The notes under the pieces: generated by a model
What the model was told of the DNA's origin: nothing
Seen by the model: the letters and a program-made list of their open reading frames with translations, nothing else
Databases searched by the model: none
DNA from: Gammaproteobacteria bacterium
GTDB lineage: Bacteria > Pseudomonadota > Gammaproteobacteria > Chromatiales > Chromatiaceae
Length of the DNA stretch: 38,437 nt
NCBI GenBank assembly: GCA_030066355.1
Contig: JASJBU010000007.1
Coordinates: 1-38,437 of the forward strand
Direction: 5' to 3'
In this document: piece after piece, positions 11,093 to 13,540 of the stretch
Numbering within the stretch: the first letter of the stretch is position 1
Layout: each line of letters opens with the position of its first letter
Program-made: the position numbers and the translations under genes

Positions 11093-11166
11093 TGGCTGGG
11101 GATGGAGGATTCGAACCTCCACATACGGAGTCAGAGTCCGCTGTCCTGCCATTAGACGAATCCCCA
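11093..11166 (-). tRNA. tRNA-Gln (anticodon CUG)
   Basis: Reverse complement TGGGGATTCGTCTAATGGCAGGACAGCGGACTCTGACTCCGTATGTGGAGGTTCGAATCCTCCATCCCCAGCCA; acceptor TGGGGAT/ATCCCCA, loop CTCTGAC, GGTTCGAATCC T-arm, encoded CCA. Confidence 0.95.
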
Positions 11167-12163: not shown

Positions 12164-12193
12164 AAAAAAAAACGCAACAGGGGATGTTGCGTT
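12164..12193 (-). terminator. Rho-independent terminator of candidate sRNA
   Basis: Stem AACGCAACA/TGTTGCGTT (9 bp perfect), loop tcccc, then T9 on the minus strand (the last two overlap the stem). Confidence 0.85.
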
Positions 12194-12253
12194 CAGAATA
12201 ACCACCAAAAGGAGGAATGGAGGATTACTGATTTAGCTTCTAGATCAGTATGT
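12164..12253 (-). ncRNA. Candidate orphan small RNA (about 90 nt)
   Basis: No convincing ORF; minus-strand promoter TTGACA-17-TAGTGT (12288-12260), 5' hairpin at 12226-12250, anti-SD CCUCC motifs at 12211-12225, 9-bp intrinsic terminator at 12171-12193 followed by a U-tract of up to 9. Confidence 0.55.
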
Positions 12254-12259
12254 ACAAAT

Positions 12260-12288
12260 ACACTAATATAGTAAGGCCGAATTGTCAA
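12260..12288 (-). promoter_or_regulatory. Predicted sigma70 promoter of candidate sRNA
   Basis: Minus strand: perfect TTGACA (12288-12283), 17-nt spacer, TAGTGT (12265-12260). Confidence 0.5.
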
Positions 12289-12541: not shown

Positions 12542-13540
12542 ATGACCCACTCCAGTTCACTCACCGAATCCGAATCCAAAAGACTGCAAGAGCTGGGGCT
12601 GGCCGTCATTCAAACTGAAACTGATGCCATATCAGCCCTTTCAAGTCGTATCGATCATGCGTTTGCCAAGGCCTGTCACTACCTGCTCTGTTGCACCGGT
12701 CGTATCGTCGTCATCGGCATGGGTAAATCGGGGCATATCGGCAGCAAGATAGCTGCCACCTTAGCCAGCACAGGTAGCCCGGCATTTTTCGTCCACCCCG
12801 GTGAAGCGAGTCATGGAGATCTGGGAATGATCACCCAATCCGATGTCGTCCTCGCTCTATCCAACTCCGGAGAAACCGATGAATTGCTAACCATTCTACC
12901 CCTGATAAAGCGCCTTGGAGTCCCTCTCATCGCCATGACTGGCAACCCAACCTCCACTTTGTCGAGAGAAGCCGAGGTCAATATCGATGTCAGTGTTGCG
13001 AAAGAGGCCTGCCCTCTGGGACTGGCCCCGACTTCCAGCACCACTGCAGCACTTGTCATGGGAGATGCCATGGCCGTTGCACTGTTGGAGGCCAGGGGAT
13101 TCACCGCTGAGGATTTCGCTCTGTCTCATCCCGGCGGCAGTCTGGGAAGGCGCCTTCTCCTGCATGTCAGTGATATCATGCATACTGGCAGTTCGCTACC
13201 GAAGGTAACGCTCGATGCTTCTCTCGAAGAAGCCCTCAAAGAGATGTCTGACAAGGGACTGGGCATGACCGCAATCGTCACATCTGCCGGGCAGCTGGCC
13301 GGTGTCTACACGGATGGTGACCTGCGGCGAACACTCGATCGCCCCGTGAATATACGGGATGTCAAAGTGTCAGAGGTCATGACCCCCCGGTGCAAGACCG
13401 CAGCCCCTGAGATGCTGGCCGCCGAAGCATTGCAGTTGATGGATCAGAATAAGATCAACGGTCTATTGGTAGTGGACGCCAACCAGGAGCTGGTTGGCGC
13501 TTTCAACATGCATGACCTGCTTAGGTCCGGCGTAATGTAG
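12542..13540 (+). CDS. kdsD: Arabinose-5-phosphate isomerase (KpsF/GutQ family, SIS + CBS domains)
   Basis: GRIVVIGMGKSGHIGSKIAATLASTGSPAFFVHPGEASHGDLGMI; two CBS repeats; next to kdsC and lptCAB. Confidence 0.95.
   Translation: MTHSSSLTESESKRLQELGLAVIQTETDAISALSSRIDHAFAKACHYLLCCTGRIVVIGMGKSGHIGSKIAATLASTGSPAFFVHPGEASHGDLGMITQSDVVLALSNSGETDELLTILPLIKRLGVPLIAMTGNPTSTLSREAEVNIDVSVAKEACPLGLAPTSSTTAALVMGDAMAVALLEARGFTAEDFALSHPGGSLGRRLLLHVSDIMHTGSSLPKVTLDASLEEALKEMSDKGLGMTAIVTSAGQLAGVYTDGDLRRTLDRPVNIRDVKVSEVMTPRCKTAAPEMLAAEALQLMDQNKINGLLVVDANQELVGAFNMHDLLRSGVM

Follow-up and report, generated by a model that had tools for sequence, protein, structure and literature searches.

We identified a small RNA (sRNA) gene beside rplM in the window, by which we mean the whole 38,437-nucleotide stretch of DNA that was analyzed. 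This gene is most likely a stand-alone anti-Shine-Dalgarno (anti-SD) sRNA gene and the rplM-linked gammaproteobacterial counterpart of the RF02278/S17/double-hairpin sRNAs. The existence of an RNA gene of about 90 nt at this place is clear. Its predicted transcript occupies positions 12164 to 12254 of the minus strand, with an approximate 5' end, and was matched there by our covariance model R1 and, below threshold, by RF02278.

Inspection of the sequence placed all of the minus-strand elements, to the base, where a first-pass annotation had put them. A 5' hairpin, TACTGAT-c-TAG-aag-CTA-a-ATCAGTA (12226 to 12250), is followed by AUCCUCCAUUCCUCCUUUUGGUGG (12225 to 12202), which separates it from an intrinsic terminator (12164 to 12193). 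The perfect 9-bp stem of the terminator is made of AACGCAACA (12193 to 12185) and TGTTGCGTT (12179 to 12171) around a TCCCC loop (12184 to 12180), and a run of nine T's then reaches 12164. The sequence, a consensus scan, and the fold all confirmed this terminator and its U tract. No convincing open reading frame was found in the sRNA region, in agreement with the first-pass annotation, and so a protein-coding reading was rejected.

The 87 nt from 12168 to 12254 folded at −23.9 kcal/mol, compared with a mean of −11.35 for shuffled sequences (z = −4.9), and none of 200 shuffles folded as well. There are three hairpins in the fold: the 5' hairpin, a small one in the middle, and the terminator. 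The middle segment, which contains the anti-SD core CCUCCAUUCCUCCUUUUGGUGG (12202 to 12223, minus strand), is therefore not merely single-stranded but forms CC.CCA(UUCCUCCUUU)UGG.GG, with one CCUCC in the loop. The unpaired probability in the fold of the window RNA was about 0.35 for the first CCUCC and about 0.65 for the second. GGUGG can pair with either one, and so the two are alternately exposed. Thus, the exposed CCUCC motifs that had been proposed are present and are exposed part of the time, but they lie within a small hairpin and take turns in pairing with GGUGG.

Upstream of the 5' hairpin is a promoter-like region (12260 to 12288, minus strand), consisting of TTGACA (12288 to 12283), a 17-nt spacer, and TAGTGT (12265 to 12260). 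It is present as described in the first-pass annotation, although as a promoter match it is weak. The consensus scan that found the terminator reported no promoter over its threshold at 12260 to 12288. Within this region, TATATTAG (12270 to 12263, minus strand) is the counterpart of a block, ATATTAGAAAAT, that is conserved in relatives. The window's version of the block (about 12270 to 12259) is degenerate, and its −10 box is poor. Of 167 related loci, 124 had TTGACA with a ATATTAGAAAAT-like block upstream, compared with 20 of 167 shuffles. The commonest gap between the two motifs in the 167 loci was 11 nt, and the −10 of the relatives would read GAAAAT if the spacer were 17 nt. The conserved block is longer than an ordinary −10 box, which suggests a regulator site or a special class of promoter. 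The position of the motif, close to the 5' side of the hairpin in most relatives, suggests that these RNAs may be transcribed directly rather than processed from a longer precursor with a small open reading frame. Despite its weak promoter match, the window locus stands above chance because it is conserved by BLASTN, covariance-model, and covariation evidence.

The sRNA had been described as an orphan of no recognized family. It is neither, because it has relatives across the Gammaproteobacteria and is itself a divergent relative of RF02278 (toxic sRNA/double-hairpin RNA/S17). By BLASTN, relatives were detected in two further genera of the window's family. R1 was built from an alignment of 21 gammaproteobacterial copies, and its 63.6-bit match to the window (12164 to 12250) is to one of those 21 sequences. 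It matched 78 of 96 genomes of the window's family (E value of 1e-5) and 132 of 369 genomes class-wide (E value of 1e-3). A phylum-wide search of 299 genomes gave matches in four, all within the Gammaproteobacteria, and none outside that class (E value of 1e-5). The window's genome itself has two strong R1 copies, the window copy and C100:1928-2010. A pattern scan of named genomes yielded at least 116 loci, mostly in Chromatiales, Thiotrichales, and related sulfur oxidizers. The genera included Thiocapsa, Chromatium (C. okenii), Halochromatium, Thioalkalivibrio, Sedimenticola, Thiodiazotropha, Thiothrix, Beggiatoa, Thiomargarita, and Arenicella, and one Gallionellaceae metagenome-assembled genome (MAG) was also matched. 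Pattern matches in an Oscillospiraceae MAG and in Levilinea are probably chance. Several hosts are culturable (Thiocapsa, Thioalkalivibrio, Thiothrix, and Chromatium).

The core, CUCCUCCAUCCUCCUUUGGUGG, is almost invariant, whereas the flanking hairpins differ in sequence yet covary. The core is fixed in the scan pattern, and therefore its invariance in the pattern-scan loci is partly a product of selection, but the same core is present in the R1-found loci, which were chosen without the pattern. The core differs in two loci (L205:1482-1561 and L206), where it reads CCUCCACCAUCCUCCUUUGAUGG; here GAUGG replaces GGUGG, and the register of the hairpin is apparently shifted.

Covariation was analyzed in 97 distinct copies, in which 90.7% of cells were paired. 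The covariation score was 0.454, compared with 0.152 after column shuffling and 0.09 or less in slid controls; these figures lean towards the structure, since the alignment had been fitted to the model. The 5' hairpin had two-sided changes in all 10 of its modeled pairs, with 87% of cells paired, and the terminator had them in 9 of 9 pairs, with 95.5% of cells paired. Five inner pairs of the core were practically invariant. The 48 nt preceding the core had a mean fold z of −2.6 over 167 loci, a result that does not depend on any alignment. The 5' hairpin is supported by its place, its fold, and its pairs, and the comparison of relatives favors the sRNA, with hairpins that covary around a conserved CCUCC core. 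What selection acts on can be read from the 22-nt core, which hardly varies, and from the hairpins on either side of it, which covary freely. Because the element is short, and because RF02278 alone gives low-level noise matches that extend to control genomes, one might see here no more than a terminator that happens to adjoin pyrimidine-rich intergenic DNA. However, this reading is already refuted by the conservation, the covariation, and the gene neighborhood kept in many genera, and we give it practically no credence.

The downstream neighbor of the sRNA, on the same strand, is rplM (ribosomal protein L13; 11634 to 12062, minus strand; PF00572, E value of 5.6e-48). The upstream neighbor is the divergent kdsD (arabinose-5-phosphate isomerase type, with SIS and CBS domains; 12542 to 13540, plus strand). 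We tallied sRNA copies by address, and about 68 of about 184 were upstream of rplM and on its strand, whereas about 61 were beside tgt and/or queA on the strand opposite to both; the tallies are rough because some loci came from more than one search. Contig ends truncated many of the remaining loci. Both addresses occur in the window's genome, with the rplM-linked copy and a queA-tgt copy (L034; tgt at 141 to 1286, sRNA at about 1429 to 1511, and queA at 1526 to 2560). Second copies in other genomes of the window's family were also rplM linked. Three genomes (G020, G088, and G116) have kdsD near the rplM-linked copy. Several gammaproteobacterial rplM copies are flanked on the side away from rplM by coq7, in some cases together with osmC, but the neighbor of the window copy is kdsD, not coq7. 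These two conserved chromosomal addresses make orthologues easy to locate. We found no paper in the Gammaproteobacteria literature that links an sRNA with rplM.

The position on the strand of rplM, 150 to 480 nt upstream in dozens of genomes, might indicate a cis element, a leader or attenuator in which conditional readthrough of the terminator sets L13/S9 synthesis. Some minor readthrough into rplM would still be compatible with the data. However, the same core and promoter motif are found between queA and tgt at about 61 loci, the window's own genome included, where the sRNA points away from tgt and runs against queA. The relative in Burkholderiaceae is by ilvA/osmC, and rplM was absent within 10 kb of it in six genomes. 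Furthermore, the sRNA-rplM distance varies, and the stretch from the terminator to rplM folds unremarkably (z = −0.8) and has a promoter-like sequence of its own, TTGTGC-17-TAATAT (12140 to 12112, minus strand), which the first-pass annotation had also pointed out. The occurrence of this RNA between queA and tgt is at odds with an element that works only in cis; on this ground we rejected the attenuator as the main reading, and we judge it very unlikely. The earlier proposal of an independent sRNA gene that ends in a terminator, exposes anti-SD motifs, and is something other than a simple rplM attenuator is well supported by the conservation, the covariation, the promoter-like motif kept in relatives, and the copies at the unrelated queA-tgt locus.

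An Rfam search had been suggested as a check. At the gathering cutoff it left the sRNA unmatched, and the sole match in the window was a tRNA gene 3' of rpsI (11096 to 11166, minus strand; 62.8 bits). The best subthreshold match was RF02278 (Betaproteobacteria toxic sRNA) at 12164 to 12229, with 25.4 bits (E value of 0.0065), which is about half of the gathering cutoff of 50 bits. The RF02278 model aligned over its full length (1 to 64 of 64), with CCUCCAUUCCUCCUUUUGGUGG of the sRNA aligned to its 5' hairpin. The core hairpin of RF02278, UCCUCCA...UGG.GGA with an exposed CUCC, and the terminator hairpin and U run that follow are all present in the window sRNA. Other subthreshold matches (ncr1241, ncS54, and ncS025) were set aside, since what they share is mainly the terminator.

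RF02278 exceeded its cutoff in none of the 194 genomes searched in the window's family. A loose search (E value of ≤1) matched 187 of the 194, but we left these matches out of the evidence because control genomes match too and some of the matches are a different CU-rich RNA. This second RNA, CAGUGUCCUCCUCGUCUCUC...GAGAC followed by a terminator and lacking the AUCCUCCUUUGGUGG core, occurs in several genomes of the window's family. It is at the center of loci L022, L025 to L029, and L031 to L033 and was picked up by RF02278.

Gammaproteobacterial loci linked to rplM scored 44 to 49 bits with RF02278. In the other direction, the gamma-only R1 recovered all 31 RF02278 loci of f108, a family that we took to be Burkholderiaceae by its RF02278 scores and gene order (E values of 9e-9 to 0.017); part of this cross-family score stems from the generic terminator. 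The gene order in f108, coq7-osmC-sRNA-ilvA, matches the gammaproteobacterial coq7/osmC-sRNA-rplM, and Bordetella S17 also adjoins coq7 (PMC11722255). The recovery of the f108 loci and the coq7/osmC neighborhoods make it likely that the gamma copies and RF02278 share common descent. We call the window sRNA a divergent relative, rather than filing it as an RF02278 member, because it misses the formal Rfam cutoff. It is a branch of the known RF02278/S17 kind, in the Gammaproteobacteria, that Rfam has not registered. This extends a poorly understood but experimentally supported family of anti-ribosome-binding-site (anti-RBS) sRNAs from the Betaproteobacteria to many Gammaproteobacteria. The gammaproteobacterial branch would suit registration as a new Rfam family or inclusion in a widened RF02278.

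The RF02278/double-hairpin RNAs include ncS03, ncS05, ncS27, and ncS62 of Burkholderia cenocepacia. In both groups a terminator hairpin and a U run come after the UCCUCCA...CUCC...GGUGG core hairpin, both are stand-alone genes with several copies per genome, and some gammaproteobacterial rplM copies share the coq7/osmC neighborhood with RF02278. Unlike RF02278, the present family has an extra conserved 5' hairpin and the ATATTAGAAAAT promoter block, it sits at rplM or queA-tgt, and its core spacer is AUCCUCCUUU rather than of the CCUCUCCUCCU type. The genes BCAL3348a and BCAL3349 flank ncS27 (PMC4603805). Because BCAL3348 appears in a list as a ribosomal-protein gene (PMC5688073), ncS27 may be rplM linked too. 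Bordetella pertussis S17/S17S has the same class of core, a coq7 neighborhood, and anti-RBS segments like those of the present family. S17S is an RNase E product of a 190-nt precursor with a small open reading frame (PMC11722255), whereas the window RNA lacks a convincing open reading frame and is closely preceded by a promoter-like sequence.

We infer transcription, Hfq dependence, repression, and targets as follows. The sRNA would be transcribed from its own promoter and end at its own terminator, with the 5' hairpin as a cap. The middle hairpin would show one CCUCC in its loop, the sister CCUCC and GGUGG forming the stem. The exposed CCUCC would pair with GGAGG-rich ribosome-binding sites of mRNAs, adjacent bases would give selectivity, and Hfq would probably assist the pairing, so that initiation is blocked. 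The best-supported possibility is that the sRNA covers SD regions and thereby represses, because the window RNA has an exposed anti-SD motif of the S17 type, which is partly accessible in the predicted fold. By analogy with Bordetella S17 and Burkholderia ncS27, such repression likely acts in trans (PMC11722255; PMC5688073). S17 is bound by Hfq, represses BP2158 directly by pairing with its RBS, and has single-stranded sites complementary to 70 ribosome-binding regions (PMC11722255). Overexpression of ncS27 slows growth and its silencing speeds growth (PMC5688073). When the 36 open reading frame starts of the window were roughly scanned for targets, with start codons unchecked, there was no clear excess of pairing (mean of −11.8 kcal/mol, compared with −11.1 kcal/mol for shuffled seeds).

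The core also contains CCUCCUUU, which closely resembles the 3' tail of 16S rRNA; the 16S rRNA 3' end was sought in the source MAG and was absent. The sRNA might then be a global, unspecific decoy of that tail that slows all translation, as a toxin-like growth brake. The linkage to rplM-rpsI would fit, as would the inhibition of E. coli growth by RF02278 RNAs on a cloning vector (Kimelman 2012, as cited in PMC4603805). However, S17S overexpression hardly affects E. coli growth, S17 acts on a defined gene set (PMC11722255), and the conserved stretch of about 22 nt goes far beyond a 5-nt anti-SD motif. Therefore, we consider a decoy to be quite improbable. It is also doubtful that a class-wide sRNA mimics the 16S tail so as to match translation initiation to the supply of ribosomes and tRNA modification. 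That sRNA would be a growth-linked global regulator rather than a set-specific one, with a shared, unusual TTGACA-N11-ATATTAGAAAAT promoter block and placement by rplM-rpsI and between queA and tgt.

Other CU- or C-rich sRNAs bear some likeness to the trans-acting anti-SD sRNA proposed here. The Rhizobiales sRNAs with the CCUCCUCCC motif likewise have a C-rich anti-SD motif, according to the title of PMC3927594, but that motif lacks the AUCCUCCUUUGGUGG core, and R1 gave no match outside the class (E value of 1e-5). NmsR of Neisseria is a pair of tandem CU-rich sRNAs. Some genomes with the present family recall this arrangement, with two or three copies about 100 to 280 nt apart (L150:5763-6057, which has three; G475:C3:141763-142057; G494:C107; G369:C27; and G337:C83).
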